DNA of 50,740 nt from Albidovulum sp. (GTDB lineage: Bacteria > Pseudomonadota > Alphaproteobacteria > Rhodobacterales > Rhodobacteraceae). The notes below the pieces were generated by a model that saw only the letters and a list, made by a program, of their open reading frames with translations, ran no database searches and was not told where the DNA came from. The first letter of the stretch is position 1, and each line of letters begins with the position of its first letter. This document shows, in pieces, positions 32,787 through 49,486 of this stretch. Position numbers and translations under genes: made by a program. The stretch is taken from NCBI RefSeq assembly GCF_008933605.1, contig NZ_WBUS01000007.1, positions 1 through 50,740 on the forward strand. Reading direction: 5' to 3'.

Positions 32787-33164
32787 TGGGGGACCCCCCC
32801 CTTGTGCTACGCTACCCTGAGGCACGATCTTCTCCCATGTCAGGAAGTGCCGCCGTTTTCCGGCTGTTCTTTGGTCTAGTAATCAGACCTTCATAACGCA
32901 AGTCAACCGATAAATTCCGCCTTGCCGGCGCGCCGGGCGGGCCTCGGATGCCCCTGCAGCGAGAGGATCGAAAATTCCATTGTTCTATTATCAGACCATT
33001 CATATACTTGCGCCAATGGCGACCTGGCACAAGGCGCCGGCGGACCGATCGCGAACGGGGCCGGCGTGCCACCGCGCCACGGAGCGGCCGGGTGGAGCCG
33101 GGACAGAAACAAGGCGTCTCGTCGTGGAGAGTCCCGAATCGACGCGCCCACAAGTGAGGTAACG
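32787..33164. promoter_or_regulatory. Divergent promoter region between livG and the GntR gene
   Basis: This 378-bp region separates two divergent starts. It holds the palindrome GGTCTAGTAATCAGACC (32873-32889) and a weaker copy TGTTCTATTATCAGACC (32981-32997). It is visibly more AT-rich around these sites than the flanking genes. Both are good operator candidates for the GntR-family regulator. Confidence 0.5.
32873..32889. promoter_or_regulatory. 17-bp palindromic operator candidate, site A
   Basis: GGTCT-N7-AGACC. The same 17-bp layout recurs at 49530-49546 and 49649-49665. FCD-type GntR regulators bind short palindromes of about this size. Confidence 0.5.
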
Positions 33165-34043
33165 ATGGCCCGGAAACCGGCTGGGGATGATGCGCCGAAC
33201 CCAACGGACGACGACATGACACGCGCTGACGGCCTCGTGCTCGGGGCGATCAACAGCATCCGCCCGGTGGCGACCTATGAACTGGTCGTCGAACAGGTCA
33301 AGCGGGCTATCTTCCTTGGCCGCTTCGTTCCCGGTGACAAGCTTCCGCCGGAGCGTGACCTTGCCGCGCAGATGCTGGTGTCGCGGACGACGATCCGGGA
33401 AGCCATGCGTGTGCTCGAGGGCGAAGGTCTGATCCAGGTGAAGCGCGGCGCCACCGGCGGGCTAGTGGTGAAGGCACAAAGCGGCCTGCGCCCGCACGAG
33501 ATCGAATCCTACATGGAAGCGCAGCGCGAGATGCTGGACGCGATCTACGAATACCGCATCGCCAACGAATGCATGGCCGCGCGGCTTGCCGCGACGCGTC
33601 GCAGCAAGGACCAGTTGCGGCGCATGGCGTCGGCGCTGAAGGCGATGGGGCAGTTGTGCGAGACGCCGGAGCTTCGGGCGACGTTGGCCAACATCGCGCG
33701 GTTTCGTGCGCTCGATTCCGAGTTCCATCTTGTCGTGGCCGAAGCGTCGGGCAACCGCCTCATCCAGCAGGCCGTCGAGGATGCGCGCACGGCCATGTTC
33801 CTGCCGATCGGCAAGGTATTCAAGCGGCTGGAGGACAGCGCCAACGAACACCACGAGGAGATTTTCGCCGCGATCAGTGACGGTGACCCCGATCGCGCGG
33901 CCGAGGCGATGCGCCGCCACATCGTCACGACGCGCGAAAGCCTCGAAAACCTGATGCCGCAGAAGGCCCCGCCGAAGCGGGGCGCCGCCCGTTCTGGCCG
34001 CAAGGGCGCGGCGCGAGCGGGAACGCCTGCTTCCGCGGGATGA
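33165..34043 (+). CDS. GntR-family regulator, FCD (FadR) type
   Basis: A 292-residue regulator. The winged-helix DNA-binding domain spans ~35-105 (PGDKLPPERDLAAQMLVSR, TTIREAMRVLEGEGLI), followed by an all-helical FCD ligand domain with the expected His/Asp-containing helices (FRALDSEFHLVVAEASGNRL, NEHHEEIFAAISDGD). A basic tail follows. The ATG at 33165 has GAGGT upstream; the open frame extends further 5' but lacks a start with a ribosome site. It most likely represses the Liv operon and, by shared palindromes, the RidA and kinase genes until an amine-derived effector binds. Confidence 0.87.
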   Translation: MARKPAGDDAPNPTDDDMTRADGLVLGAINSIRPVATYELVVEQVKRAIFLGRFVPGDKLPPERDLAAQMLVSRTTIREAMRVLEGEGLIQVKRGATGGLVVKAQSGLRPHEIESYMEAQREMLDAIYEYRIANECMAARLAATRRSKDQLRRMASALKAMGQLCETPELRATLANIARFRALDSEFHLVVAEASGNRLIQQAVEDARTAMFLPIGKVFKRLEDSANEHHEEIFAAISDGDPDRAAEAMRRHIVTTRESLENLMPQKAPPKRGAARSGRKGAARAGTPASAG

Positions 34044-34094: not shown

Positions 34095-35099
34095 TCAGCG
34101 AAACCGCGCGAGGTAGTCTCTCGCCAGTTTCGCCGTGTTCCGCGCGAAATGGGGGCCCATCGCCTGCGGCTCGGGCGCCTCGATGTGGCTGCCGATCCAG
34201 GCCAACAACGCCATGCGCCGCAGCATCACGAAGGTGTCGATCTCGGACTCTTCCTCGTCCGAGAGCGGGCGGACGGAGCGATAGCCCTTCACCCACGCGC
34301 GCCTCAGCGCCGGCACCTGGGGGTGATCCTCCATGAAGCTGATGCCGGTGGCGAAGTCGTAGAGGAACCAGCCGAGGCCACAATCGTCGAAGTCGATCAG
34401 AGTCGTCGCATCGCCCTCGATCAGCAGGTTCGCCAGCCGCATGTCGGCATGGACAAGCCCGTATCGCTCGGGCCCCTTGCCGAAGGCGGCGAGCCTGCGG
34501 CAGACCAGCGCCTCGCAAGCTTCCAGCACATCGCGGATCTCGGGCGTGACGTTGGGCGCATCGCGCCAGTTGCCCCAGTTGGCCTTCGGGCCGAAAACGG
34601 CGTCGGCGTCCCAGACCAGACGTTCCAGGGGGTCGGGCTTCGCCCAGGTCTGCGAATGCAGGTGCGTCCGCGCGGCGATCGCGCCGAGCCGCTCGAAGGG
34701 CGCGGTGAGGTCCTCGTTCTCGTCGGGCTGGCGGCCGTGGGCGAAGGCAAACATCACCATGAAGCGCGGCTCGGGTAGGCCGGGGGCATGGCCCTCCTGC
34801 ACCAGTTCGCCGTTCACACCCGAGATCGGCGGCGGGGTCTGCACCATACCATCGGCGGCCAGCGCCTGCGACCATGCAAGTTCCTGCCCGATACCGCGCC
34901 GGGTATGATAAGCTGGCCGGTGGATGCGCAGGATCGAGCGGAACCCTTCCGCCTCGACCAGGTAGGTGGCATTCTCCGACACGTTGATCAGCCGCGCCCT
35001 CGCCCCCGCCGGCACCGGCCAGAGCGGCAGCGAGGCGTTCGCCAGCTGCTCGAGGTGCTCGAGCAGTTCTTTCAGCGGCATCGTCGTCCCGTCAGCCAT
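34095..35099 (-). CDS. APH-family kinase, probable amino alcohol kinase
   Basis: A 334-residue phosphotransferase of the aminoglycoside/choline kinase (APH) fold. The catalytic loop is LVHADMRLANLLIEGD and the metal-binding DFG-equivalent is LIDFDDCGLGW. The ATG at 35099 lies 17 bp after the dehydrogenase stop. In the mycobacterial aminoacetone microcompartment locus an APH-type enzyme phosphorylates (S)-1-amino-2-propanol; the SDR-kinase pairing and nearby shell genes suggest the same role here. It shares the HxDxRLANLL...IDFDDCG pattern with the second kinase at 49738-50736. Confidence 0.8.
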   Translation of the reverse strand: MADGTTMPLKELLEHLEQLANASLPLWPVPAGARARLINVSENATYLVEAEGFRSILRIHRPAYHTRRGIGQELAWSQALAADGMVQTPPPISGVNGELVQEGHAPGLPEPRFMVMFAFAHGRQPDENEDLTAPFERLGAIAARTHLHSQTWAKPDPLERLVWDADAVFGPKANWGNWRDAPNVTPEIRDVLEACEALVCRRLAAFGKGPERYGLVHADMRLANLLIEGDATTLIDFDDCGLGWFLYDFATGISFMEDHPQVPALRRAWVKGYRSVRPLSDEEESEIDTFVMLRRMALLAWIGSHIEAPEPQAMGPHFARNTAKLARDYLARFR

Positions 35100-35116
35100 C
35101 GCCTGCCCCCGCCCGC

Positions 35117-35896
35117 TCAGATCGATGCCAGCGCTTCGAGCGATTCCGGCAGGATCTGCCCGCCGTCCACCACGATCTGCTGCCCGGTGATGTAGCCCGC
35201 CTCGTCTGAGGCGAAGAAGAGAGCGGCATTGCCGATGTCCTCGACATCGCCGAGCCGCTTCAGCGGGATCGAGGCAGCCATCGTCTTCAGATAGTCCTCG
35301 CCCAGGCCCTGCAACCCCTCGGTCACGATGTTGCCCGGCATCACCGCGTTGATCGTGGTGTTGTAGCGCGCCAGTTCCATCGCCGCGGTCTTGATGAAGC
35401 CGAGCTGCCCGGCCTTCGAGGCGCCATAATGCGCCCAGCCGGGATAGCCCGTCACCGGCCCGGTGATCGAGGAGGTGACGACGACGCGGCCCTTTCCGCG
35501 CTTCTCGAAATGCGGGATCGCCGCCTTCACGGAGAAGAAGGTGGACCTCAGGTTGGTGGCCATGACGTGATCCCAGTCGGCCGCGCTCATCTCGACCATC
35601 TTCACCTGCGGGAAGATGCCGGCATTGGCGCAAAGCACGTCGAGCCCGCCCTGCGCTGCGGCCGCCTCGTCCACCATGCGCTGCACGCTTTCCATGTCGG
35701 TCACATCGCAGACCGCGCCGCGCGCGGTCGCTCCGGCGGCGGCCATCTCCGCCACCGCCGCGTCGATCTCGGCCCGGTTTCGGGCGGCGATGGTCAGCCT
35801 CACTCCCTCGCGGGCGAAGACCCGGGCGATGCCGCGCCCGATCCCCTTCGATCCGCCGGTGACGATGACGCTGCGGCCCTTGAGCGATTTCGGCAT
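35117..35896 (-). CDS. SDR-family dehydrogenase, possible aminopropanol dehydrogenase
   Basis: A 259-residue short-chain dehydrogenase. The NAD(P)-binding motif is VTGGSKGIGRGIA, NAG is in LCANAGIF, and the catalytic Ser-Tyr-Lys are in VVTSSITG and HYGASKAGQLG. In a microcompartment operon of this type it would interconvert aminoacetone and 1-amino-2-propanol; this specificity is inferred from neighbours. FabG-like reduction is the generic alternative. Confidence 0.83.
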   Translation of the reverse strand: MPKSLKGRSVIVTGGSKGIGRGIARVFAREGVRLTIAARNRAEIDAAVAEMAAAGATARGAVCDVTDMESVQRMVDEAAAAQGGLDVLCANAGIFPQVKMVEMSAADWDHVMATNLRSTFFSVKAAIPHFEKRGKGRVVVTSSITGPVTGYPGWAHYGASKAGQLGFIKTAAMELARYNTTINAVMPGNIVTEGLQGLGEDYLKTMAASIPLKRLGDVEDIGNAALFFASDEAGYITGQQIVVDGGQILPESLEALASI

Positions 35897-35923
35897 GTTG
35901 TCCTCCCTAGACGTTTCTTTATT

Positions 35924-36718
35924 TCAGGTCCGCCGGCGCAGCCAGCGCACCAGGATCAGGCCGGCCAGCACCAGCACGGTCGAGCCCGCCACCGACATCA
36001 CCCCGAGTGCCGGAATCTGCGGAGTGAAGCCCGATACCATCCGCGAATAGAGCCACTTGGGCAGCGTCGCATCCACGCCCGAGGTGAAGAGCGACAGCGG
36101 GAAGTTGCCCCAGGACAGCAGGAAGGCGAAGAGCCCTGCCGAGACGATCCCCGGCATCAGCAAGGGCAGCGTCACCTCGCGCATCACCGTCAGCGTCGAG
36201 GCGCCCATGTCGCGCGCCGCTTCCTCCAGCGCGGGATCGAAGCCATAGGCGCGGATGGCGATGATCAGCGTGGTGATCGGCGAGATCCAGACCAGATGCG
36301 CCACCACGGCGGTCTTCCAGCTCGGCGTGACGCCGATCGCCGAGAACCAGATCAGGAGCGCAAGGCCCAGCACCGTCTGCGGGAAGAAGATCGGCAGAAG
36401 GATCGCCTTCTGGAAGAGGCCGCGGAAACGCCACTGGAACCGGGCGAAGGCGAGCGCGCCGAAGAAGCCGAGGATGACCGAAATCACCGTCACCGTGACC
36501 GCGATCTTGAGCGAGGTCAGCACGATCTGGTGCACCGTAGGACTGGTGACCGCCTCCGCCATCCAGCCGCCGGTATAGCGCTTGACCGGGAAGCTCAGGT
36601 AGCGCGCTTTCGAGACCGACGCGAAGCCCACCGCGACGAGCGGCAGGTAGAGCACGACGAGGATCAGGGCGCCGTAGAGATAGAGCGCAGCGCGGGTGGG
36701 GCGGGAGACGGCGGTCAT
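35924..36718 (-). CDS. potC: Polyamine-type ABC transporter permease (PotC family)
   Basis: A 264-residue permease with about six helices and the cytoplasmic EAA loop (EEAARDMGASTLTVMREVTL). The ATG at 36718 overlaps the potB stop (ATGA). The importer probably supplies the amine or amino alcohol consumed by the microcompartment. Confidence 0.9.
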   Translation of the reverse strand: MTAVSRPTRAALYLYGALILVVLYLPLVAVGFASVSKARYLSFPVKRYTGGWMAEAVTSPTVHQIVLTSLKIAVTVTVISVILGFFGALAFARFQWRFRGLFQKAILLPIFFPQTVLGLALLIWFSAIGVTPSWKTAVVAHLVWISPITTLIIAIRAYGFDPALEEAARDMGASTLTVMREVTLPLLMPGIVSAGLFAFLLSWGNFPLSLFTSGVDATLPKWLYSRMVSGFTPQIPALGVMSVAGSTVLVLAGLILVRWLRRRT

Positions 36719-37569
36719 TTGCGCCGCCCCATGATCGCGTCGAGGTCGATCCGGCTGATCGGCACCAGCGCGATCAGCGCGACGATGACGATCAGCATCA
36801 GCGACAGCGCCGAACCGAGCGGCCAGTTCTGCGCGTAGGTGAAGGCGCTTTCCACGTCGTCGGTCAGCACCACGACCGAACGGCCGCCAAGGAGCTTGGC
36901 CTCGGCCACCGCGCCGGCCGAGAGCACGAAGGTCAGAAGGCAGCCGACCACGATGCCCGGCGCGGCAAGCGGCATCTCGATCTCGAACAGGATGCGCCAG
37001 GGGCCGGCGCCCATGTCCATCGCCGCGAGCCGGGCGTCGTCGGGCACCAGCGCGATCCCCTGCGCCAGCGGAAACAGCATGAAGGGGAAGTAGACGTAAC
37101 ACATGCCGAAGACGATCGCCGGCCAGGTGTAAAGCGGCGTCTCGAAGCTCAGCCCCGTCCAGGCGCGCAGGTGCCCCTCGATCAGCCCCCCCTTCATCAG
37201 CGTCAGGTTCCAGCCGAAGAGCCGGATGTTCTCCGACACGAAGAGGAGGAGCACCACCAGCACGGTGATCACCAGGGTGAAGCGGCCGAAGACCTTGGCC
37301 ATGCCGTAGGCCAAGGGCCAGCAGACCACGAAGAGGATCGCCGTGGTCAGGAAGGCAAGGCCGAGCGAGCGCAGCAGGGATTTGTAGTAGCCCTGTTCCC
37401 AGATCACCGCGAAGGACGAGAAATCCGGCATGTGCGCCAGTTCGAAGACCTTCTGCGGCATGATTGCGAAGCCCGCGATGACCACCATCGGCATGATGAA
37501 GCTGACCATCAGCAGAAGCCCGATCGGCAGCGCCGCGAGCAGACCCATGCGACGCTCAAGCCGCTCCAT
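36715..37569 (-). CDS. potB: Polyamine-type ABC transporter permease (PotB family)
   Basis: A 284-residue permease of the spermidine/putrescine class with the EAA-type loop (ARLAAMDMGAGPWRILFEIE) and a conserved SENIRLFGWN segment. I start at the ATG at 37569, overlapping the end of potA by 14 bp; the longer frame is inside potA. Confidence 0.88.
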   Translation of the reverse strand: MERLERRMGLLAALPIGLLLMVSFIMPMVVIAGFAIMPQKVFELAHMPDFSSFAVIWEQGYYKSLLRSLGLAFLTTAILFVVCWPLAYGMAKVFGRFTLVITVLVVLLLFVSENIRLFGWNLTLMKGGLIEGHLRAWTGLSFETPLYTWPAIVFGMCYVYFPFMLFPLAQGIALVPDDARLAAMDMGAGPWRILFEIEMPLAAPGIVVGCLLTFVLSAGAVAEAKLLGGRSVVVLTDDVESAFTYAQNWPLGSALSLMLIVIVALIALVPISRIDLDAIMGRRK

Positions 37570-38650
37570 CGCCCGCTCCTTCCGCGATGAGATGCACCGA
37601 GCCGCGGTCCCAGCCGAGCCGCACCGGGCTGCCGACCGGGGCCTCCAGCCGCGCCTCGAACGGGCGCTCAACGGTCACCTCGGTGCCCGCGTCGGTCGTG
37701 ATCGCATACTGGACGCGCGAGCCCAGCGCGTATTCGGCGGCTAGCCGGCCCGACAGGGTGAACTCGGCGCCACCCTTCCCTCCGTCGACGAAATGGATCA
37801 GTTCCGGCCGGACCATCGCCGTGCCGTTCCAGCCGGGGACTAGCGACAGCGCGCCGGGCGCGGCCGTGATCCCGCTGTCCTGCCAGCGGGGTGCGCCATC
37901 GGCCCCGGAGCCGAGCGCGAAGAGGTTCACCTCGCCCATGAAGCTCGCCACGAAGCGGCTGACCGGGCGGGAATAGATTTCTTCGGCGGTGGCGATCTGC
38001 TCGAACCGGCCGGCGCGCATGATGGCGATGCGGTCCGACATCACCATCGCCTCTTCGAGCGAATGGGTGATGTAGATGAAGGTCTTGCGGGTGCGCCCGT
38101 GAAGGTCCTTCAGCTCCTTCTCCAGCGTCTTGCGCAACCGGTAGTCGAGCGCAGAGAGCGGTTCGTCGAAGACGATGATCTGCGGGTCGAAGGCGAGCGC
38201 GCGAGCCAGCGCCACCCGCTGCCGCTCGCCGCCCGAACATTGCGAGATGCGCTTGCCGTAGTAGTCCGCCGGCAGGCGCAGGAGCGCCAGAAGCTCCAGC
38301 GCCCGCGCCCTCCTCGCCTCGGGCGCGAGCTTGCGCACCTTCAGCGGGAACTCGATATTCTGACCCACCGTCATGTGCGGGAAAAGCGCGAGCGACTGGA
38401 ACACCATGCAGGTCGGCCGCTTGTCGGCGGGCATTTCGTCGATCCGCGCGCCGTTCAGGCTGATCGTGCCCTCGGTCACCTCGTCGATGCCGACCAAAAG
38501 GCGGATCAGCGTCGACTTGCCGCTGCCCGAGGGGCCGACGATGGTCAGGAACTCGCCTTCCGCGATGTCAAGGCTGATCCGGTCCACCGCGGTGAACCGG
38601 CCGAACCGCTTGGTCACGTTCTCTATCCGCAGGAAAGGCTGCCCCACCAT
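37556..38650 (-). CDS. potA: Polyamine-type ABC transporter ATPase (PotA family)
   Basis: A 364-residue ATPase: Walker A VGPSGSGKSTLIRLL, signature QCSGGERQRVALAR, Walker B IIVFDEPLSALD, H-loop YITHSLEEAM, then a C-terminal TOBE-type domain. The ATG at 38650 with AAGGGACG ahead is preferred to the upstream 38674. Confidence 0.9.
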   Translation of the reverse strand: MVGQPFLRIENVTKRFGRFTAVDRISLDIAEGEFLTIVGPSGSGKSTLIRLLVGIDEVTEGTISLNGARIDEMPADKRPTCMVFQSLALFPHMTVGQNIEFPLKVRKLAPEARRARALELLALLRLPADYYGKRISQCSGGERQRVALARALAFDPQIIVFDEPLSALDYRLRKTLEKELKDLHGRTRKTFIYITHSLEEAMVMSDRIAIMRAGRFEQIATAEEIYSRPVSRFVASFMGEVNLFALGSGADGAPRWQDSGITAAPGALSLVPGWNGTAMVRPELIHFVDGGKGGAEFTLSGRLAAEYALGSRVQYAITTDAGTEVTVERPFEARLEAPVGSPVRLGWDRGSVHLIAEGAGDGAA

Positions 38651-38730
38651 CGTCCCTTCATCCCGTGTCCGCAAGGAAGGCCCGGCGGGGCATGAGGCCC
38701 CCGCCGGACGGTCCCGGTTCAGCCGCCAAC

Positions 38731-39867
38731 TCAGCCGCGGCGGGCTTCGACGTAGATCGCCAGGAGCTGGTCGTAGGACGGCACCTCCTCGAACTCGATG
38801 CAGCGCGCCAGCTCCTCGGCCAGCGTGTCGACCTGCATCGCGTCAAGCTGGTCCTCGTCGAAGAGCGCCATCACCTCCGGGTTGCCCATCTGGGTGATCG
38901 GGTTCAGCGTGCCGCCGCCGGAGGCGACCAGCTTGGCAATCTCGGGCTCCTGCACGTATTCGAGGAAGTCCTCGGCCAGCGACGAGGGATCGGGGTTGTT
39001 TACCGCCGAGGTGATCTCCACCCAGACGATGCCGCCCTTGCCGTCGACCGGGCCCGACCGCGGCGTGATGCCGCGGATGTTGGTCATCCCGTCATAGCGC
39101 GCGCCGGAACAGCTGAAGACGCCGCCGGTGAAGTAGCAGTCGACCTCGCCGTTGATCAACGCGGTGTTCATCGCCACCAGGTCGTCGGTCATCAGGCGGG
39201 CGTTGCCCATGATCTGCTTCGCGACCTCGGTATACTTGCCGACGTTTTCCTCGCTCACCGGCTGGAACGGGTCGAATCCGGCAGTCATGCACAGGTGCAT
39301 CACGTTCCAGTTGTCATAGGTCAGCACGCCGTATCGGCCCTTTAGCCCCTCGTCGAGGAACAGGTTCCAGCCCTGGTCCTCGGCCATGTCCAGGCTGATC
39401 TTGTCGGTGTTGACGACGAAGTTGAACGCACCATAGCGCTGCGGCATCCCCATAAGGTCGGTGCCGTCCGGAGAGAACGCCATCGCATAGGGCGGGTTGG
39501 CGAATTCCGGCGACATCTTCTCGAAATAGGGCAGGAAGCGCTCCTTGTTCAGCGGCTTGATCAGTTGCTCCTTGAACATCACGCCGCGGGCCCAGGCCTG
39601 GTTAACGTTGATCAGATCCCACTGGCCAAGCCCGCCCGCGCGCAGGCGATTGATCATTTCCGGGTCCGAGGTGCCACTCTCGGCGCGCACCGTCGCGCCG
39701 GAGTGCCGTTCGCGGAACGGATTGAGCACGTCGTCGGAGTTGTAGCCCTCCCAGCACAGTATGTTGAGCTGGTCGTTGCGCGCGGCAAGGCTCCGGCCCG
39801 GCAGCGCGAGGGCGGAAAGGCCGGCAAGGCCCGCGGCTCCGAGCGAGAACTGGCGTCTGGTGATCAT
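38731..39867 (-). CDS. Periplasmic substrate-binding protein (PotD/PotF type), Tat signal
   Basis: A 378-residue binding protein. The N-terminus ITRRQFSLGAAGLAGLSALA is a twin-arginine signal. The mature start NILCWEGYNSDDVLNPF is typical of PotD/PotF proteins, and the W-E-G-Y motif is part of the amine pocket. An unusual CYFTGGVFSCSGARY segment carries two cysteines. GGGAGGAAGAC precedes the ATG. It would capture an amine for PotABC. Confidence 0.88.
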   Translation of the reverse strand: MITRRQFSLGAAGLAGLSALALPGRSLAARNDQLNILCWEGYNSDDVLNPFRERHSGATVRAESGTSDPEMINRLRAGGLGQWDLINVNQAWARGVMFKEQLIKPLNKERFLPYFEKMSPEFANPPYAMAFSPDGTDLMGMPQRYGAFNFVVNTDKISLDMAEDQGWNLFLDEGLKGRYGVLTYDNWNVMHLCMTAGFDPFQPVSEENVGKYTEVAKQIMGNARLMTDDLVAMNTALINGEVDCYFTGGVFSCSGARYDGMTNIRGITPRSGPVDGKGGIVWVEITSAVNNPDPSSLAEDFLEYVQEPEIAKLVASGGGTLNPITQMGNPEVMALFDEDQLDAMQVDTLAEELARCIEFEEVPSYDQLLAIYVEARRG

Positions 39868-39963
39868 GTCTTCCTCCCTTGTTGATGTGTCGCGTCAGGG
39901 CGGTGTGTCCGCCGATTTTGACGTGGTCATGCGGCCCCGGCCGACTGCCGGGTGCCGCGGGTG

Positions 39964-40587
39964 CTAACGTCCGCGGATTGCCTCCAATCTGGCGGTAATC
40001 GTGTCGCGCGCAAGGCGCATGTCCTCGAGCCGGCCCGAGATGAACAGCCGCCCCGTCGCGCCCATCATCTGCACGTCGTTGATGACGCAGCCGGGCGCGG
40101 CCTTCTCGGCCTCGTTCGCGGCGACGCAGGCAAAGAGCGCCGGCGCCATCTCGTAGATTAGAAGCGCCTGGCCGGGCACAAGGATCGAGGCATCGCGCGA
40201 GCGGTTGAGAATGATCGCGTGCTGGTCCGACAGATCCTCGATGATGTCGTGATAGAGGATCTGGGGCCGCATCTGGTCCTCGGGCTTGGAGCCGATGCCC
40301 TTGAGGATCGCTTCGCCTGCCGCCTGAAGATTCTCCATGCGGTCGGAATGCAGTTCGAGAAGCCCGAACTGGCGCTCGGTGTAGAGGATGCCCGGCTCCA
40401 TATCCGGCGCGGACTTCAGCGCAAGGTCGGTGATCCGGTGGATCGCCAGGGCTGGCGCCACCTCGATGATCAGCGAATGCTGTCCCGCGAAGGGCGGATA
40501 CCCCCTCGCCCGCGTGGGCGAGGAAAGATACGCCGCAAACTGGGGCTGAAGATCCTCTATGGGAAGATAGACGCGAAGCTCTGTCAT
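39964..40587 (-). CDS. BMC-T (tandem-domain) microcompartment shell protein 1
   Basis: A 207-residue shell protein with two BMC folds forming pseudohexameric trimers. Diagnostic segments are VAPALAIHRITDLALKS and EPGILYTERQFGLLELHS in the first domain, and MAPALFACVAANEAEKAAPG in the second. It resembles the BMC-T proteins of the Rhodococcus/Mycobacterium (RMM) type. It shares the overall pattern with the second BMC-T at 41688. Confidence 0.9.
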   Translation of the reverse strand: MTELRVYLPIEDLQPQFAAYLSSPTRARGYPPFAGQHSLIIEVAPALAIHRITDLALKSAPDMEPGILYTERQFGLLELHSDRMENLQAAGEAILKGIGSKPEDQMRPQILYHDIIEDLSDQHAIILNRSRDASILVPGQALLIYEMAPALFACVAANEAEKAAPGCVINDVQMMGATGRLFISGRLEDMRLARDTITARLEAIRGR

Positions 40588-40651
40588 GCCTCAGTCCTTG
40601 GTTTCGGGCCGTGGTCGCCGGATTCGGGGCGCGCTTGCGCTCGCAGGGCAC

Positions 40652-40933
40652 TCAGCCCTTCACCGCCTCGAAATGCTTGGCCAAGTCGGGATGCGGGCGC
40701 GGGATGACATGGACCGCCGTCACCTCGCCCACCTGCGCGGCTGCCTCGGCGCCCGCTTCCGTCGCGGCCTTGACCGCGCCCACGTCGCCGCGAACCACGA
40801 CCGAGACCAGTCCGCCGCCCACTTCGTTGCGGGCGATAATCTCGACGTTGGCCGCCTTGACCATCGCATCGGCCGCCGACAGCGCCGGCACGTAGCCCTT
40901 GGTTTCGATCATTCCGATTGCAAGATTAGCCAT
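40652..40933 (-). CDS. BMC-H hexameric microcompartment shell protein
   Basis: A 93-residue single-domain shell protein ([20 protein letters not shown], then [20 protein letters not shown]). Length and the glycine-rich pore loop (VGGG) are standard for PduA/CcmK-like hexamer tiles. It is the only BMC-H in the window. Confidence 0.95.
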
Positions 40934-40948
40934 TTCTCTGGGACTCCC

Positions 40949-41218
40949 TTACTTGCGTTTTGCTGCCGGTTTCCCGGTGGATTCTTCGTCGATCGAGCCG
41001 ATGATGAGGGCGTCGATCGGGGCCGACCTGTCCTGGAACCACGAGGCCGCCACCGAACCTTGCGTGACCAGCACCGCCTCGCCGTCGGCGCAGCCGAGCG
41101 GGTCGAAGGCAATCAGTCTCGCACCGGTTTCGGTTTCCACCTCGAGAAGCGCGCCGGTGGGCAGCGTTCCGATGTGGCGCGTGGACCAGAGCCTGCCGCT
41201 GACGCGTGCCCGTATCAT
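40949..41218 (-). CDS. BMC-P pentameric vertex protein (EutN/CcmL family)
   Basis: An 89-residue vertex protein (MIRARVSGRLWSTRHIG, LIAFDPLGCADGEAVLVTQG, DALIIGSID). Members form the pentamers that cap shell corners. The ATG at 41218 overlaps the stop of the preceding gene (ATGA); the longer open frame is not coding. Confidence 0.92.
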   Translation of the reverse strand: MIRARVSGRLWSTRHIGTLPTGALLEVETETGARLIAFDPLGCADGEAVLVTQGSVAASWFQDRSAPIDALIIGSIDEESTGKPAAKRK

Positions 41219-41691
41219 GCCAGTGTCCTTTCGATCCTGAGGCCGCGGCGGCGTGCCTCGTCGCCCGCAAGCGGGGTCAGCCGCGCGGATTTGGTGATTC
41301 TCAGCCGGGCCTCGCCCTCGGCGACGGCGGCGATGTCGCGTTCGGTGATCAGGCCCTTGCGCAGTTCGGGAACCGGGGCGGGCATGGTCGTCACAAGCGT
41401 GATCGGCTGGGCGGGTGCTGCGGCGGCGGGTTGCGGCATCGGCGGTGCATAGGCGGGCGCGGGTATGGCCTGCACCGGATATTCCGGTGCAAATCGGATG
41501 CGCCCCTCGCGCAGCGCGGCGGCAAACCCCGCATCCTGCGCGCGGGCCAGCACCGACAGGGCGAAGTCGGTCAACTCCGCCTCGGTGCCCGCGCGCACCC
41601 GCTCCACCTTCGGCCTGCCGGGGCTTTCCGATCGCAGTGCCGCGATCTCCTCGGCCAGGATCTGGCGGATGAGTGATCTCAACTCGCTCAT
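41215..41691 (-). CDS. Microcompartment-associated protein with encapsulation-like helix
   Basis: A 158-residue protein. The N-terminus MSELRSLIRQILAEEIAALR is an amphipathic helix like known cargo-targeting peptides. A Pro/Ala-rich linker follows (about residues 74-106), then a small C-terminal module (GLITERDIAAVAEGEARLRI, SARLTPLAGDEARRRGL) resembling a segment found at the edge of several microcompartment enzymes. A scaffold or cargo adaptor is plausible. Genes of similar size occur between shell genes in RMM loci. The ATG overlaps the BMC-T stop (ATGA). Confidence 0.7.
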   Translation of the reverse strand: MSELRSLIRQILAEEIAALRSESPGRPKVERVRAGTEAELTDFALSVLARAQDAGFAAALREGRIRFAPEYPVQAIPAPAYAPPMPQPAAAAPAQPITLVTTMPAPVPELRKGLITERDIAAVAEGEARLRITKSARLTPLAGDEARRRGLRIERTLA

Positions 41692-42302
41692 CCGGCCGCT
41701 CCCGCCTCGCGCAGCACGCGCTCGGCCGCATCGCGCGCATTCCTGACATCCGCCTCGGTTCCGGCGAGGTAGAGCCGCCCGTTCGCGCCGAACATGCGCA
41801 TGTCGATGACCTTGATGTCGGCCGCCTTTTCCGCCTCATTGCAGGCGAGGATCGCATAGGCCGCGGGCTGGCATTCCAGGAGGTAGACGCTTTCACCGCC
41901 CAGGACCATCGAGCCGGTCTTGTTGCGGTTCATGAGGAAAGCGTGCTGGTCGTCCACGCGCGTGACGATCTTCGAGGCCATGATCTTCGGCCGCTCCGCC
42001 TGCTCGCGCCGCTTTCCCATTGCGGCAAGCGCGGCGTCGGCGCCAGCCCGCACCTCGGCGGTGGAAAAGGCGTGGAACAGCAGCGTGCCGAACTGCCGCT
42101 CGACGACGAGTGATCCGGCCCGCACCTCGGCGCTTTTCAGGACCGTGTCGGTCAGCGCCTCGATGTCGAGCCCCGGCGCGATCTCGATGATCTGAGCGGC
42201 CATTCGCGCGCGCGGCAGCGTCCCGCGCATCCAGGTCGCGGTATAGGCAAGCGTCTGGGGCTGCAACTGGTCGATGAAGATGAACGCGCGAAGATCTGTC
42301 AC
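41688..42302 (-). CDS. BMC-T (tandem-domain) microcompartment shell protein 2
   Basis: A 204-residue tandem BMC protein (QIIEIAPGLDIEALTDTVLK, SLVVERQFGTLLFHAF, then AAYAILACNEAEKAADIKV). It aligns with the 39964 gene through both domains, with divergent loops, so the two could form different pores or the two layers of a stacked trimer. The GTG start overlaps the aldehyde dehydrogenase stop (GTGA). Confidence 0.9.
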   Translation of the reverse strand: MTDLRAFIFIDQLQPQTLAYTATWMRGTLPRARMAAQIIEIAPGLDIEALTDTVLKSAEVRAGSLVVERQFGTLLFHAFSTAEVRAGADAALAAMGKRREQAERPKIMASKIVTRVDDQHAFLMNRNKTGSMVLGGESVYLLECQPAAYAILACNEAEKAADIKVIDMRMFGANGRLYLAGTEADVRNARDAAERVLREAGAAG

Positions 42303-43858
42303 GACTGGCCTCGGGTCAGTTCACGAAGTTCCTGAAGGATGAGCTGGCGCAGAAGGTCGCGGTCCATGCCCCCGCCATCCGCAACGGCGGGAACGGCGAC
42401 GGGTCGCGGCCTCGGGGCGGCAGATGCGCGTGTGCCGGCGGCCGACCCGTCGAAGGGCGCGCGCACGCCGCTCATGTCGGGCATGGCGACTGAGGCGTCG
42501 GAGTTCCACGCGAGCCGCGTCCAGTGCACCAGATGCTGCGGCCCGATGTTTTCGCCGACCGAGGATCGCCCGAAATAGCCGGTGCCGATCATGAACGAGG
42601 GGGGCAGATGCGTGGCGAACCCGGCCGCCCCTTGCGAGCAGGGTGCATTCACAACCACCCGGTAGACCGACAGTGCCGCCGCAAAGTCCATCGCCTTTTG
42701 CGGATCCTCGCCGTGGAACGCGGCCGAGTGGCCCGCGCCGACCATCCTGAGGATCATCTGCGCCATGCCGGTTGCGCGCTCGAAGCTTTCGGCGGTAGCC
42801 CAAGCGAGCACGGGCGAGAGCTTCTCTCGCGTGAGCGGCTCGTCAAGCCCAACCTGTTCGATCGGTGCGACCAGAATCCGGATCGAGGGCACGACGCGGA
42901 AACCCGCCTTCTCGGCGATCCAGGACGCACTCTTGCCGACGGCTGCCGTGTTCAGGTGGCCCTCGGGAAAGAGCCAGGCGCGGAGCCTGACAACCTCGGC
43001 TTCGGTGCACACATGCGCCCCTGCGGCGCGCAATGCGCGCTCCAGTTTGCCGCGGTTCTCCTCGATCGAGATCAGCACGCTTTCATGCGTGCAAAGTACC
43101 GAATTGTCGAAGGATTTCGACTCGATGATGCGGCGGGCGGCGGCATTCTGATCGGCGCCCGGATCGACATAGACCGGCGCGTTTCCCGGTCCCACCCCGA
43201 TCGCGGGCGTGCCTGACGAATAGGCCGCGCGCACCATCGGCCCGCCGCCTGTGGCGAGGATCACCTGCACCTTCGGCGAGGCCATCAAGGCCTGCACGAG
43301 AGGCACGGAGGGTTCTTCGACGCACTGGATCAACCCGGCCGGCGCGCCTGCGGCCACGGCGGCCGCCTCGAGCCGCGCCGCGGCGTCGTTGCAGCAGGTC
43401 TTCGCCAATGGATGCGGGCTGAAGATCACCGCGTTGCGGCTGAGAAGCGCGAGCATGGTCTTGTAGTAAAGCGTCGAAATCGGGTTGGTGGCGGGCGTCA
43501 GCGCAAAGATGACGCCGGCCGGCTTGGGAATCTCCACCATCTTGCGCGCGGGATCGACCCGCGGGCTCACAAGGTCCATGTCCTCGTAGAAGTCCACCAG
43601 CGGATGGGCGGAGAGTTCATTCTTCAGCTGCTTGTGTTTGACCACGCCCATGCCGGTCTCGCGGACCGCCCATTCGGCGTAATGTCCTGCCGCCTGATGC
43701 GCGGCCTCGGCCACCGCACGGACGATCCGCATCACCGCGGCGCGGTCGTAGCGGGCATAGGCGCGCACCGCCCATCCCGCCCGGTCGATCTTCATCCGGG
43801 CGGTCGTCTCCGCCCGGTCGGGGACCTGGAGCCGTGGCGCGTCGTTGTGGACCGGCAT
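42299..43858 (-). CDS. CoA-acylating aldehyde dehydrogenase, microcompartment type
   Basis: A 519-residue PduP/EutE-like dehydrogenase that would oxidise an aldehyde to acyl-CoA. Landmarks are GVIFALTPATNPIST (residues ~115-129), the glycine-rich LATGGGPMVRAAYSSG, and catalytic Cys256 in FDNSVLCTHESV. After residue ~475 there is a Pro/Ala-rich linker and a final amphipathic helix (LLRQLILQELRELTRGQS), a C-terminal encapsulation-peptide candidate. The ATG at 43858 follows the aminotransferase-family gene by 16 bp; upstream open frame is shadow. Propionaldehyde is the expected substrate by analogy with the RMM pathway. Confidence 0.88.
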   Translation of the reverse strand: MPVHNDAPRLQVPDRAETTARMKIDRAGWAVRAYARYDRAAVMRIVRAVAEAAHQAAGHYAEWAVRETGMGVVKHKQLKNELSAHPLVDFYEDMDLVSPRVDPARKMVEIPKPAGVIFALTPATNPISTLYYKTMLALLSRNAVIFSPHPLAKTCCNDAAARLEAAAVAAGAPAGLIQCVEEPSVPLVQALMASPKVQVILATGGGPMVRAAYSSGTPAIGVGPGNAPVYVDPGADQNAAARRIIESKSFDNSVLCTHESVLISIEENRGKLERALRAAGAHVCTEAEVVRLRAWLFPEGHLNTAAVGKSASWIAEKAGFRVVPSIRILVAPIEQVGLDEPLTREKLSPVLAWATAESFERATGMAQMILRMVGAGHSAAFHGEDPQKAMDFAAALSVYRVVVNAPCSQGAAGFATHLPPSFMIGTGYFGRSSVGENIGPQHLVHWTRLAWNSDASVAMPDMSGVRAPFDGSAAGTRASAAPRPRPVAVPAVADGGGMDRDLLRQLILQELRELTRGQS

Positions 43859-43874
43859 CTTCCGCCCTCCCCCC

Positions 43875-45155
43875 TCAGGCCGCCCGGCGCGGGTTGCGCA
43901 GGAGCGCTCGCGCCCGCGGCATCGCCGCTTCCATCCGGTCGACGATCTCCTGGCAGGTCGCGGCGTCCAGCAGCACGCCCGGCTTGAACTGCAACACCCG
44001 CTTGTCGAGCGAGGAGAAGATCGCCCAGACCCCGTTCTCGTAAAGAGCACGCGACACGGCGACCGCGCCTTCCGGATGATCGAATTCGAGCCCGAGGATG
44101 ACGCCGCGCTGGCGGACGCCGACGAAGATGTCGCTGTGGGCGGCCATCATCTCGGCCAGGCTGCGCTGGAAGAACTCGGCCACATACTGCACGTTGGCGA
44201 TCACCTCGGGACGCTGAAGCATCTCGATGACCTGATGGCCGATGATGCACCCCAGTTCGGAGCCGCCGGAGGTCGAGATATGCGCCGCGCCATCTTCTAG
44301 CTGCCAGGCGCCGCATTTCTCGGTCACCACGCAGGCCGAGATCGGATAGATGCCGCCGCCCAGCCCCTTGGCAGTCACGAACATGTCGGGGTCTAGGCCA
44401 TAGGACTGCCATCCCCACATGGCACCGGTGCGCATCAGTCCCGTCTGCACTTCGTCGGCGATGTAGAGCGTGCCGCAGCGGCGGCAGATGTCCTGACAGG
44501 CCTTCAGATAACCTTCCTCCGGCATCGGAAAGCCGTAGGTCGCGGGGATCGTCTCGATGATGAAGGCCGCCACGTCGCGATTCTTCAGCGCGCGCTCGAG
44601 CGCCTCCGCGTCGTTGAAGGGGACATGGACGAATTCCTCCGGACGGTCGGCTAGGAAGATCTTGGAAAAGCGCTCGTCGCCGGTGGCCACCGACAGGCCG
44701 GAGTGGCCGTGATAGCCCTTGATGATCGACGCGATCTTGCGGCGCTTTGTGGCATATCGGGCAGTTTTCAGGGCGATTTCCACGGCTTCGGCCCCGCCAG
44801 CCCCGAAAATCGCGTACTTCATGCCGGGCGCCGACTTCACCAGCTTCTCGGCAAAGGCCGCGCGCGCGACCGAGGGGAACCAGTGGTTGCCCATGTCGAA
44901 ATAATCAAGCGCGGATTTCAGGGTGGCCACCAGTTCGGGGTTCCGGTGGCCAAAATTGTAAGTCCCGCCATTGAGATGCAGGTCGATTAGGCGGCGACCA
45001 GACATGTCGTAGAGGAAGTAACCCTCGCGGCGATCGATCACCAGGTCGATCCCTGCGTCCTGCCAGAACTTCGTCTTGCCGGGGTTCCAGTATTCAATCG
45101 CCTTGGCAAGCAGCTCGTCCTTCGAGTCGAAACTGAAGAATCCGTAGTTGTACAC
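43875..45155 (-). CDS. Class III PLP enzyme, probable amino alcohol phosphate phospho-lyase
   Basis: A 426-residue PLP-dependent enzyme of the class III aminotransferase family. The cofactor-binding Asp234 (ADEVQTGLMR) and Lys263 (TAKGLGGGIYP) are present, and YHGHSG lies where YHG usually stacks on PLP. In RMM loci a class III enzyme eliminates phosphate and ammonia from 1-amino-2-propanol phosphate to give propionaldehyde; position first in the shell operon supports that over transamination. The GTG start has GGAGGTG eight bases upstream. Confidence 0.82.
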   Translation of the reverse strand: MYNYGFFSFDSKDELLAKAIEYWNPGKTKFWQDAGIDLVIDRREGYFLYDMSGRRLIDLHLNGGTYNFGHRNPELVATLKSALDYFDMGNHWFPSVARAAFAEKLVKSAPGMKYAIFGAGGAEAVEIALKTARYATKRRKIASIIKGYHGHSGLSVATGDERFSKIFLADRPEEFVHVPFNDAEALERALKNRDVAAFIIETIPATYGFPMPEEGYLKACQDICRRCGTLYIADEVQTGLMRTGAMWGWQSYGLDPDMFVTAKGLGGGIYPISACVVTEKCGAWQLEDGAAHISTSGGSELGCIIGHQVIEMLQRPEVIANVQYVAEFFQRSLAEMMAAHSDIFVGVRQRGVILGLEFDHPEGAVAVSRALYENGVWAIFSSLDKRVLQFKPGVLLDAATCQEIVDRMEAAMPRARALLRNPRRAA

Positions 45156-45300
45156 GAGCGCACCTCCGTTTGACTGAAGTCTGTCACTTTATTCGGCATT
45201 AGACAACATAGAAATGTTGCTAGTCGGGCAAAATTGCTGTTGACCGCCCCGCCCCCACCTGCTTCTTTCGGCCAAGGCGTGGCAATTCTGGTGCTTTCCC
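45156..45300. promoter_or_regulatory. Divergent promoter region of the microcompartment operon and DeoR gene
   Basis: A 145-bp region, AT-richer than its neighbours, between the first shell-operon gene and the DeoR-type regulator. It contains the palindrome CAACATAGAAATGTTG at 45204-45219 and a looser GTCT...AGAC pair at 45179-45204. Confidence 0.5.
45204..45219. promoter_or_regulatory. Operator candidate for the DeoR-type regulator
   Basis: CAACAT-AGAA-ATGTTG has perfect 6-bp arms and a 4-bp centre. It is 49 bp before the shell-operon start and 82 bp before the regulator start, a position suited to coupled repression and autoregulation. Confidence 0.45.
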
Positions 45301-46083
45301 GTGGCAAGGACGCAATCGCGCAAGGAACTGCGGCAGGGCAGAATCCTCGCCGCTCTGGAAGCCAACCCCTCGCTCAGGGTGAACCAGCTCGCCGAGGAGC
45401 TCGATGTCTCCACCGAAACAATTCGCCGCGACCTTTCGGAGCTGGACCAGATCGGGCGGCTGAGCCGCACCTTCGGCGGCGCCGTGAGTACCGGCAATCG
45501 GTTCGAACCCGCGCTGAACGAACGGCTGCGACTTTTCGTCCCCGAACGCAGGGCGATCGCCCGCGCCGCCGTCGCGCGGTACGAAAGCGCCGAGACGCTG
45601 GTACTTGGCGGCGGGGCGACCATGTTCACCTTCGCGCGGGTGTTGCGCGAAACCCGTCATCGCATCACCGTCATCACCCCCGCCTATCCGATCGCGGTGG
45701 AGCTCGCGTCCAGTCCGCTGATCGAGGTCATGCTGCTTCCTGGCACGTTCGAGCCGCAGGAACGGATGGTCTTCGGCCCAGAGACGATCCGGGCGCTTGA
45801 ACGCTATCGCGCCGAGGTCGCCATCATCGGCGCCTCGGGGCTCGATCCGTCCGGGGTCAGCGAGGCGATGCTGCGCGCGGGCGAGGTCTATGCCGCCATG
45901 CTCGCCCATGCCAACCTTGGGGTGGTCCTGGCCGATCATTCCAAGTTCGGGAAACGCGCGCTGGTGCATCTGCGCGGCTGGTCCGCTGCGCTGACGCTGA
46001 TCACCGACGAGCAGCCCCCCGACACACTCGCCACCGCGATCCGCGACGGCGGCAGCGCATGCGTCGTGGCGGCGGCGGAGTGA
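45301..46083 (+). CDS. DeoR/GlpR-family transcriptional regulator
   Basis: A 260-residue repressor. The N-terminal helix-turn-helix (VNQLAEELDVSTETIRRDLS) is followed by FGGAVSTGN and a sugar-phosphate-isomerase-like effector domain (VLGGGATMFTFARVL, IIGASGLDPSGVSEAM, LADHSKFGKRALV). Such domains usually bind a phosphorylated metabolite; 1-amino-2-propanol phosphate is a candidate here. It is divergent from the shell operon. The GTG at 45301 has no clear ribosome site, so the exact start is uncertain. Confidence 0.83.
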   Translation: MARTQSRKELRQGRILAALEANPSLRVNQLAEELDVSTETIRRDLSELDQIGRLSRTFGGAVSTGNRFEPALNERLRLFVPERRAIARAAVARYESAETLVLGGGATMFTFARVLRETRHRITVITPAYPIAVELASSPLIEVMLLPGTFEPQERMVFGPETIRALERYRAEVAIIGASGLDPSGVSEAMLRAGEVYAAMLAHANLGVVLADHSKFGKRALVHLRGWSAALTLITDEQPPDTLATAIRDGGSACVVAAAE

Positions 46084-46113: not shown

Positions 46114-47619
46114 TCAGCCGCCGGAGAGACTGGCCTTCACCTCGCGGCGGACGATCTTGCCATACGCGTTCTTCGGCAGAAACTCTACGAAGGCGATGCG
46201 TTTCGGCTTCTTGAAGCTTGCGATGTGCTGGCGGCAGAACTCCTGCAAGTCCTCGGCCGCCACCGGCCCCGAGGCGACGACGGCGGCGGTAACCGATTCC
46301 CCCCATTTCCCGTCGGGTTCGCCAAAGACGCAGACCTCTCGCACGGCGGGATGCAGCATCAGCACATCCTCAATCTCGCGCGGGTAGATGTTGCTTCCGC
46401 CTGAAATGATCACGTCATTCATCCGCGACAAAAGGTAGAGATAGCCGTCCTCGAACCGGCCGACATCGCCGGTGTGAAGCCAGCCATCCTTGAGCGCCTT
46501 CGCGTCGGCCGCGGCGTCGTTCCAGTAGCCGCGCATCACCACATCACCCCGCACGCAGATCTCGCCTTCCGCGCCGTCGACCACGGGCTGGCCGGACTCG
46601 TCGACAAGACGCACCTCGACATCGGTTCGTACCGTGCCGGCCGAAAAGAGCACCCTTCCGTGGTGGTCCCGAGGCCGGAGCGCGCTGATCGTCATGGGCG
46701 ATTCGCCCTGGCCATAAAGCTGGGCGAAGATCGGACCGAAACGGGCCATTGCGGCTTCGGCGAGGCCGGGGTCGATCGGGGCGCCGCCGTAGGGAACGCG
46801 CCGCAGCGTCGGCACCTTCAAGGCGGGGTTGGTCTCCAGAAGCATGTGGATCATGGTTGGCGCGACGAAGGCAAGGATCGTCACCCTTTCGCGCGCGATC
46901 GTCGCCAGCACGTCGGCGGCATCGAACGAGCCGCCCGCATAGATCAGATTGGTAGCCCCGCGCGCGATCGAGGGCAGGGCATAGAGGCCCGAGCCGTGAG
47001 ACAGGGGTGCCACATGCAGCACCACGTCCTCGGGCTGGAAGTCGCAGACATCGGCAAGCGCGTTCATAGTCATGGCGCAGAGGTTGCGGTGGGTCAGCAT
47101 GGCCCCCTTCGGCCGCCCCGTCGTTCCCGATGTGTAGAAGATCCAGGCAAGGTCGTCTGGCGCCACCTCGGCGTCCTCGGCGCGATGATCCAAGCCGTCG
47201 TCGACGATTGCCTGGAAGGAGTCCGCGCCCTCGGAGTCGGTGTCGATCAGGTCGATGCCGGACATGCCGGCCAGCGCCTCCTCCACCACCGCCCGGGATT
47301 TCCGCGAACAGACAACGCCGCGCGCGCCGCAATGGCCGGCGATGAAGCCAAGTTCGGACGTATGAAGCTTGGCATTCGCCGGCACCGCCACAAGGCCGCC
47401 CTTGAAGAGGGCGAAGAGCGCCACGATATAGTCTGCCCGGTTCGGCATGAACAGGACGACCCGGTCGCCTGCCGCATAGCCGCGCCGGCGCAGGCCTGCC
47501 GCGAAGGCGGCGGAGCGGGCGTTCATCTCGTCGTATCGAAGCGTCATTCCGCTATCGACCAGGGCAATTTTCGACGGATTGAAGCGCGCGGCCTTGGTCA
47601 AGAAAGTTCCGGTATTCAC
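46114..47619 (-). CDS. AMP-forming acyl-CoA synthetase
   Basis: A 501-residue member of the ANL superfamily. The P-loop is FYTSGTTGRPKGAMLTH; the hinge region DGWLHTGDVGRFEDGYLYLL and the C-terminal YGKIVRREV catalytic Lys are intact. It activates a carboxylic acid to its CoA ester, perhaps propionate or another acid escaping the shell pathway. The GTG start is 24 bp after the neighbouring class III PLP gene. Confidence 0.87.
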   Translation of the reverse strand: MNTGTFLTKAARFNPSKIALVDSGMTLRYDEMNARSAAFAAGLRRRGYAAGDRVVLFMPNRADYIVALFALFKGGLVAVPANAKLHTSELGFIAGHCGARGVVCSRKSRAVVEEALAGMSGIDLIDTDSEGADSFQAIVDDGLDHRAEDAEVAPDDLAWIFYTSGTTGRPKGAMLTHRNLCAMTMNALADVCDFQPEDVVLHVAPLSHGSGLYALPSIARGATNLIYAGGSFDAADVLATIARERVTILAFVAPTMIHMLLETNPALKVPTLRRVPYGGAPIDPGLAEAAMARFGPIFAQLYGQGESPMTISALRPRDHHGRVLFSAGTVRTDVEVRLVDESGQPVVDGAEGEICVRGDVVMRGYWNDAAADAKALKDGWLHTGDVGRFEDGYLYLLSRMNDVIISGGSNIYPREIEDVLMLHPAVREVCVFGEPDGKWGESVTAAVVASGPVAAEDLQEFCRQHIASFKKPKRIAFVEFLPKNAYGKIVRREVKASLSGG

Positions 47620-47643
47620 GGCGCGGGCCTCCGGTCGGGCACG

Positions 47644-49005: not shown

Positions 49006-49069
49006 CGGATTCTCCTGTTGCGTCGCGGCCGCGTCCTTGTGGCCTGACCGTGTGGCGTTCAGCGCCGGT

Positions 49070-49486
49070 TCAGCGCCCCTGTCTGCGCAGGAACGCGACC
49101 GCCTCGATCTCGATCTGGGCGCCGAGCGCGAGGGCGGGGGTGCCGACGGTCGAGCGGGTCGGGAATGGTGCCGAGAAGAATTCCTGATAGACGCGGTTGT
49201 AGTCGGCATAGCCGGCGAAATCGGTCAGGAATATCCGCGTCTGGGCGACGTCGGCCAGGGTCGCGCCATAGCTGGCGAGGATCTCGCGGATGTTCTCGAG
49301 ACATTTGCGGGTTTGGCCGCCGATCCCGCCGGGCACCACGGCGCCGGTCTCGTCGATGCCGATCTGGCCGGAAATATAGATGACATCGCCGACGCGGACG
49401 GCATTGCTGATCGGCGCCTTGGCCAGAAAGCCCTCGGGGGCCCTGTAGTCCCGGTCCTCTCCGGTTGACCGCGGTTCCGCAGACAT
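49070..49486 (-). CDS. RidA-family enamine/imine deaminase
   Basis: A 138-residue protein of the YjgF/YER057c/UK114 family (VGDVIYISGQIGIDETG, FPTRSTVGTPALALGAQIE), which includes the conserved Arg that binds the carboxylate of 2-aminoacrylate-like substrates. It would hydrolyse the reactive enamine or imine released by the PLP-dependent lyases. The ATG at 49486 with GAGCGAAG ahead is chosen over longer frames; site C (49530-49546) is 43 bp upstream. Confidence 0.88.
   Translation of the reverse strand: MSAEPRSTGEDRDYRAPEGFLAKAPISNAVRVGDVIYISGQIGIDETGAVVPGGIGGQTRKCLENIREILASYGATLADVAQTRIFLTDFAGYADYNRVYQEFFSAPFPTRSTVGTPALALGAQIEIEAVAFLRRQGR

Follow-up and report, generated by a model that had tools for sequence, protein, structure and literature searches.

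A bacterial microcompartment (BMC) locus is found in a 50,740-nucleotide stretch of Albidovulum sp. (Rhodobacteraceae; assembly GCF_008933605.1, contig NZ_WBUS01000007.1), referred to below as the window. Its shell genes are joined on the minus strand with genes for an importer and for metabolic enzymes, including a class III pyridoxal phosphate (PLP) enzyme here termed PLP-X. On balance, it appears somewhat probable that the locus encodes a metabolosome of the Rhodococcus and Mycobacterium microcompartment (RMM)/Aaum type for 1-amino-2-propanol or aminoacetone, in which PLP-X would be a separately derived amino-alcohol-phosphate lyase. What is new relative to the R. jostii RMM2 locus is the PLP enzyme, which belongs to another clade; the importer is usual and not special.

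In the proposed pathway, the amine would be imported by a PotDABC-type transporter, and a short-chain dehydrogenase/reductase (SDR) would interconvert aminoacetone and 1-amino-2-propanol. An APH-family kinase would convert 1-amino-2-propanol to 1-amino-2-propanol O-phosphate, from which PLP-X would eliminate phosphate and ammonia to give propionaldehyde. Within a shell of one BMC-H, two BMC-T and one BMC-P protein, a peptide-tagged CoA-acylating aldehyde dehydrogenase (AldDH) would produce propionyl-CoA, which may exit via the methylmalonyl-CoA route. PLP-X would have arisen separately from the phospholyases ETNPPL and A1RDF1, which are also class III PLP enzymes and with which it would share its reaction type.

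The RMM pathway is unsettled. In the available text of two papers, published models assign aminotransferase activity to the PLP enzyme, and the kinase is given a late step or no fixed one (PMC4207490, PMC6620236). Comparison of shelled loci, shell-less clusters and the Rhodococcus locus reveals related importers, SDRs and kinases alongside two unrelated PLP enzymes, one of which was seen solely with a shell in the genome samples searched. If the proposed pathway is true, it would explain how one shell can serve several amino alcohols without cobalamin.

Shell, kinase and dehydrogenase of the RMM type

The preliminary description of this DNA assigned the shell to the RMM type, and sequence comparison supports this assignment. 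The best Protein Data Bank (PDB) matches of the two BMC-T proteins and of BMC-P are the Mycobacterium smegmatis RMM proteins MSM0275, MSM0271 and MSM0273. For BMC-H, the best single-domain PDB chain is 5l38, by a small margin; a tandem fusion of BMC-H reaches 182 across two stretches. The shell phylogeny proposed as a check was run for both BMC-T proteins. In a tree of 23 sequences, the two paralogues cluster with their respective counterparts from Rhodococcus jostii RMM2 (support 86/84 and 91/85), and the RMM-like paralogues are separated from five other BMC-T proteins of the family (100/100).

The kinase (PDB search query 34095-35138) is closest to 6ef6, which we take to be the aminopropanol kinase of the M. 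smegmatis RMM. The SDR is closest to 6ci8 and 6ci9, presumably the aminopropanol dehydrogenase of the same compartment, although with a smaller lead than the kinase has (313 and 312 bits, followed by 3pk0 at 288, 3rih at 277 and all others at no more than 168). By best PDB match, and with the entries identified as above, the M. smegmatis RMM1/Aaum (Aut) locus likewise contains two BMC-T, a BMC-P and a BMC-H together with a similar SDR and APH kinase.

The RMM2 locus of R. jostii RHA1 (pRHL2) shares with the window the order AldDH-T-small protein-P-H-T. Identities are 48% for AldDH (over 496 residues, which places it in the RMM type), 63% and 65% for the BMC-T proteins, 74% for BMC-H, 49% for BMC-P and 40% for the kinase. 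There is no match to the window Pot genes or SDR within the 30 kb compared, and a permease annotated for ethanolamine is encoded nearby. The gene content had also been said to match the mycobacterial RMM locus; this holds for the shell, kinase and SDR and is not supported for the PLP enzyme, which is of another clade than that of R. jostii RMM2. A propanediol utilization (PDU) or ethanolamine utilization (EUT) metabolosome would carry diol dehydratase or ethanolamine ammonia-lyase, and PduL, in its locus. None of these is recognised among the predicted operon proteins, to which the search for the first two was confined.

A distinct class III enzyme at shelled loci

PLP-X belongs to a class III clade distinct from the ETNPPL/A1RDF1 phospholyases. 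In a 24-row tree, ten PLP-X sequences form one group and four phospholyase-type sequences another, each supported at 100/100, and neither ETNPPL (6tor) nor A1RDF1 (5g4i) is among the 40 PDB matches of PLP-X below 1e-30. In contrast, the PLP enzymes of R. jostii RMM2 and Agrobacterium fabrum C58 are of the phospholyase type: the former scores 320 bits against 5g4i and 298 against human ETNPPL (next 168), and the latter 358 and 325 bits (next 192). PLP-X shares 25% identity with the enzyme of R. jostii RMM2 and lies in a separate clade, which sets it apart from the class III PLP enzyme of that RMM; the comparison covers the R. jostii enzyme, not the M. smegmatis one. The R. jostii enzyme also ends in a C-terminal encapsulation-like peptide, and none was recognised in PLP-X.

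Related loci were collected by a profile scan of genomes, which gave 353 confirmed BMC-T relatives. The best 80 of these 353 were taken together with 15 further stretches, and seven of the resulting 95 (L128, L107, L113, L100, L090, L114 and L045) were removed as lying on the same contig as another locus or on a second contig of one genome. Because only the best 80 of 353 were used, the 88 loci compared are tilted towards loci resembling the window. Presence was scored by tblastn with fixed score thresholds, and some misses reflect contig ends. Each of the two BMC-T genes and AldDH occur in all 88 loci, BMC-H and BMC-P in 87 each, the small protein in 73, PLP-X in 81, the kinase in 70, the SDR in 69 and the DeoR-family regulator in 35. 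A phospholyase-type PLP enzyme occurs in none: the best score is 139 bits, which is the level of cross-hits, compared with 384-474 for true ones in the shell-less loci L198-L200.

In addition, 149 genomes of the family and 385 of the class were searched, with the window genome in both samples. RMM-like BMC-T (at least 55% identity) is present in 5 of the former and 11 of the latter, while PLP-X (E 1e-60) is present in 5 and 8, always with an RMM-like BMC-T one gene away. In these two samples, PLP-X is therefore seen solely near RMM-like shells. The class searches scored part of the candidates per genome (for example, 4 of 16 for PLP-X), so that a weaker second copy could be missed. Three class genomes (G503, G426 and G332, with loci L048-L050) contain RMM-like BMC-T without PLP-X. 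These loci are another compartment type, with an RMM-like shell and an AldDH of 43-45% identity; near L050, where Pfam was run, are genes for a TauD-like dioxygenase, an AraC/DJ-1 regulator and a TRAP transporter.

Kinases and shell-less clusters

The kinase is a common partner of PLP-X. It is in view at 70 of the 81 PLP-X loci, at 39-84% identity to the window kinase. A PF01633 kinase alone is in view at three (L054, L060 and L108), of which L108 has the kinase upstream (L168). Neither is in view at eight. At L130 the kinase lies further along the same contig; L061, L071, L082 and L098 are short stretches or end inside the operon; and L041 stops just past PLP-X, while a kinase fragment of 40 residues lies on a different contig. 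The last two, L080 and L129, are considered in the next section.

PotD homologues sought in the same genomes identified 17 loci of 16 genomes with PotD and without RMM-like BMC-T (L200, L209-L224), some of which end at contig edges. Three of them (L200, L209 and L214) contain an SDR (62-76%), a kinase (42-46%) and a phospholyase-type PLP enzyme (56-59%). The other 14 have neither the kinase nor the phospholyase type, and the class III genes of L217 and L220 are nearest PLPb, a second class III enzyme of the window. A fourth shell-less cluster with Pot, SDR and kinase genes is found on pAt of A. fabrum C58 (L132). It resembles the window in its Pot genes (49-57%), SDR (61%), kinase (44%) and DeoR gene (41%), and the clusters of L200 and L209 do so at 61-76% for Pot and SDR and 42-43% for the kinase. 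All four of the clusters read carry a phospholyase-type PLP enzyme and none carries PLP-X (best match 22-29%). In C58 and its alphaproteobacterial relatives, the phospholyase-type enzyme stands in place of PLP-X, with no shell or AldDH match in the stretch read.

A reading anchored on the kinase was also made. The kinase at 1e-70 but no RMM-like BMC-T is present in 14 family genomes, and in nine of these the surroundings of the kinase were read. In four (L198, L199, L200 and L209), a phospholyase-type gene lies beside a kinase of 42-46% identity, and the SDR of L199 reaches 76%. No phospholyase-type gene lies beside the kinase in the other five (L194-L197 and L201), of which L194-L196 have kinases of 61-64%. 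A plasmid of Pseudorhodobacter turbinis (L133) encodes a kinase of 71% identity near a class III gene that is 30-31% like either type. The stretches of L194, L195, L196 and L133 have no match to Pot genes, PLP-X, a close phospholyase-type gene or a shell gene.

The proposed reaction of PLP-X

Several findings were counted in favour of a lyase. The kinase accompanies PLP-X at most of its loci, and the four shell-less clusters read carry a phospholyase-type enzyme. PLP-X stands where a phospholyase-type enzyme is missing throughout the 88 loci. The PLP enzyme of R. jostii RMM2, whose shell is of the type seen here and whose kinase is 40% identical, is likewise of the phospholyase type. PLP-X also has the motif Q-F-K-P, whose basic residue is invariant in 77 sequences, and the phospholyases have K-x-[RK]-P; this residue is missing in all nine other class III proteins of the window genome that have letters there. 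An argument that Gln in place of Arg in R-x-x-P excludes PLP-X as a transaminase was dropped, because only PLPb and two of eight other non-phospholyase-type class III proteins of the genome keep the Arg.

Several observations weigh against the proposed lyase. No biochemistry on PLP-X was found, and its nearest solved structures, by sequence and by Foldseek, are aminotransferases (PigE, putrescine, acetylornithine). An AlphaFold2 model (77 sequences, pLDDT 86.6) is matched best by PigE and putrescine aminotransferase, and the Foldseek top 50 contains no phospholyase, so that tree, PDB sequence matches and structure comparison all leave PLP-X outside the phospholyase clade. No encapsulation peptide was recognised in PLP-X, while the R. 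jostii PLP enzyme has one. PF06130 (PduL) is absent from the genome. As for the kinase, none is present in the genome of L080, the best genome match at L129 is 26%, and the genome of L060 has a PF01633 kinase instead of the window type. The kinase alone is a weak guide to the lyase, because shell-less kinases of 61-71% identity (L133 and L194-L196) occur without PLP-X or a close phospholyase-type gene. Finally, the window genome has a phospholyase-type homologue elsewhere, on contig C152, which is 55% identical to the C58 protein. At L129 (5924-8426), from the Olavius algarvensis Gamma 3 endosymbiont, PLP-X appears in separate pieces.

The closest solved relatives of PLP-X would suit an aminotransferase that converts 1-amino-2-propanol to lactaldehyde (or aminoacetone to methylglyoxal), after which AldDH would form the CoA thioester and the kinase would act at a later point or elsewhere. 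Such models are given for RMM/Aut loci in the available text of Axen 2014 (PMC4207490) and Ravcheev 2019 (PMC6620236). We regard this as unlikely, although it is the most serious alternative. It leaves a kinase common to PLP-X loci without a role before the PLP step, and both the Rhodococcus version and the shell-less Pot, SDR and kinase clusters use a phospholyase-type PLP enzyme. It is highly unlikely that the homologue on contig C152 carries out the lyase step, with PLP-X as an accessory. Despite the resemblance of that homologue to the C58 protein, its gene ends at a contig edge, the 8961-base contig has no match to the window Pot, SDR, kinase or shell genes, and PLP-X is present in the same five family genomes as RMM-like BMC-T.

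No literature linking microcompartments with phospholyases was found in the one library searched, nor any linking microcompartments, Rhodobacteraceae and aldehyde dehydrogenase.

Encapsulation-like peptides and cofactor supply

Encapsulation-like peptides were sought by eye in 15 loci chosen from the 88. The C-terminus of AldDH has an encapsulation-like helix after a linker in all 15, and the N-terminus of the 158-amino-acid small protein has one in all 14 where this protein was found. No such peptide was recognised in PLP-X, whose encapsulation is presumed, or in the SDR or the kinase. With aminoacetone as substrate, NAD(P)H balance could be maintained by the SDR. CoA recycling is unexplained because of the absence of PduL; in the available text of Axen 2014, it is likewise open for RMM (PMC4207490). 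Two matches to the methylmalonyl-CoA-mutase family in the genome count in favour of the proposed pathway.

Importer, regulators and distribution

A PotDABC-type importer is the usual companion of the sampled alpha- and gammaproteobacterial loci, since PotD and PotA are each present in 58 of the 88 loci, PotB in 65 and PotC in 66. Actinobacterial RMM loci, in contrast, are reported with an amino-acid-type (GabP/Eat) permease, as far as the available text of two papers goes (PMC4207490, PMC6620236). The preliminary description held that an ABC importer replaces this permease; PotDABC is indeed found in its place, but it is not special to the window genome, an idea that the counts rule out.

Two regulators were also thought to flank the operon. 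The DeoR gene is a recurrent member. The GntR/FCD gene (about 33165-34043, plus strand) was ruled out as a member of the locus, with one weak match (44 bits) in the 88 loci. Its other flank holds a divergently oriented ABC operon of the branched-chain-amino-acid type, and the gene more likely belongs to that side.

RMM2 is recorded in Paracoccus yeei (PMC8156839, available text). The available text of Ravcheev 2019 describes an Aut locus without the kinase in two proteobacterial genomes, Verminephrobacter being named (PMC6620236). Related loci also occur in Ca. Neomarinimicrobiota and Sulfurimonas metagenome-assembled genomes (L110 and L112). Our guess is that they may correspond to the pair of RMM2 phylum outliers given in the available text of Sutter 2021 (PMC8217296).

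Possibly exchangeable front ends

At L054 and L058, the shell genes are followed by a ribose-type ABC importer, an amidase and two PF01633-type kinases. In L054, this importer, amidase and choline/ethanolamine-kinase-family kinase set (12386-19288) lies beside the PLP-X/AldDH/shell core. In L108, once the upstream stretch L168 is included, a single core is accompanied by this set as well as by PotDABC-SDR-kinase, and L060 has one PF01633-type kinase. Pfam was run on the proteins of L054 and L108, while L058 and L060 were assigned by similarity. Although there are just four such loci and the role of the set is our inference, they suggest that one core serves several phosphorylated amino alcohols.

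A broader reading is possible, though we consider it somewhat doubtful. It would have the proteobacterial RMM type possess a separately evolved class III phospho-amino-alcohol lyase limited to shelled loci, with the lyase/AldDH/shell core as a general B12-independent unit that accepts exchangeable importer-kinase modules. An APH kinase would then supply aminopropanol, and a choline/ethanolamine-kinase-family kinase with amidase would supply ethanolamine-like substrates.

The same loci bear on the substrate of the window locus itself. Ethanolamine or another short amino alcohol could be taken through kinase, lyase and AldDH to acetyl-CoA, with the SDR serving another step. PF01633 kinases with an amidase and ribose-type importer on the same core (L054, L058 and L108; kinase alone in L060) are compatible with this, as is the permease annotated near the R. 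jostii locus. It is nevertheless quite improbable for the window, where the operon lacks a PF01633 kinase and encodes an aminopropanol-type kinase together with an SDR that matches 6ci8/6ci9 best.

Operon layout and neighbouring genes

The genes named in the preliminary description were all recovered by Pfam, NCBIfam and PDB matches (Table 1). Thirteen tightly packed minus-strand genes run from the PLP enzyme to the kinase (34095-45155) in the order PLP enzyme, AldDH, BMC-T, 158-amino-acid protein, BMC-P, BMC-H, BMC-T, PotD, PotA, PotB, PotC, SDR and kinase. A single transcription unit, as had been suggested, is plausible from the sequence because the gaps range from -14 to +96 nt and four are 4-nt overlaps. 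A promoter scan gave no sigma-70-like site, and terminator-like sites are no commoner than chance. No further PF00936 match was found in the rest of the assembly, which comprises 3.66 Mb in 299 contigs and is 98.3% complete. The second BMC-T has no Pfam match at E 1e-3 or even at E 5, and PotD has no PDB match at E 0.01.

Table 1. Genes of the microcompartment locus and the adjoining regulator, in window coordinates
Feature	Position	Strand	Matches and remarks
PLP-X, class III (Aminotran_3) PLP enzyme	43875..45155	-	PF00202 4.8e-71; GTG start
CoA-acylating AldDH	42299..43858	-	PF00171; AdhE/EutE-type NCBIfam matches below cut-off; C-terminal encapsulation-like peptide
BMC-T, MSM0275-like	41688..42302	-	PF00936 3.5e-9; PDB 5l39 270 bits (9.3e-80), next 162
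158-amino-acid protein	41215..41691	-	weak PF15953 (PDU_like): E 0.028, 14.8 bits, cut-off 27; N-terminal encapsulation-like helix
BMC-P vertex protein, MSM0273-like	40949..41218	-	PF03319 1.1e-18; PDB 5l37 97 bits, next 27
BMC-H, MSM0272-like	40652..40933	-	PF00936 1.4e-26; PDB 5l38 122 bits, next 109
Second BMC-T, MSM0271-like	39964..40587	-	PDB 5suh 295 bits (3.2e-87), next 151
PotD-like solute-binding protein	38731..39867	-	PF13416 3e-14; PotD NCBIfam 2.3e-8, below cut-off
PotA-like ATPase	37556..38650	-	PF00005, TOBE_2
PotB-like permease	36715..37569	-	PF00528; PotB NCBIfam 1.4e-34, below cut-off
PotC-like permease	35924..36718	-	PF00528
SDR, aminopropanol-dehydrogenase-like	35117..35896	-	PDB 6ci8/6ci9 313/312 bits
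APH-family kinase, aminopropanol-kinase-like	34095..35099	-	PF01636; PDB 6ef6 252 bits, next 57
DeoR-family regulator	45301..46083	+	PF00455/PF08220; divergent, 145 nt from PLP gene

Past the DeoR gene (46114-50736) lie genes for an AMP-binding protein, PLPb (47644-about 48900) and RidA, and on the opposite strand a second APH kinase (49648-50736), which is 44% identical to the operon kinase. PLPb groups with the phospholyase-type clade (96/94), and this region is possibly a second amine pathway. These four genes were rejected as members of the locus. RidA is present in 1 and the AMP-binding protein in 3 of the 88 loci, and the matches to PLPb (at most 135 bits) and to the second kinase (at most 258 bits) were interpreted as cross-hits with PLP-X and with the kinase of the operon.

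On the other side of the operon, the window contains genes for a thiolase, a glutamine-synthetase-like protein and the branched-chain-amino-acid-type ABC importer, divergent from the GntR/FCD gene (24539-34043). Further away are a BrxL-like/MIT_C protein (19520-20401) and an IS240-type transposase (23524-24228).

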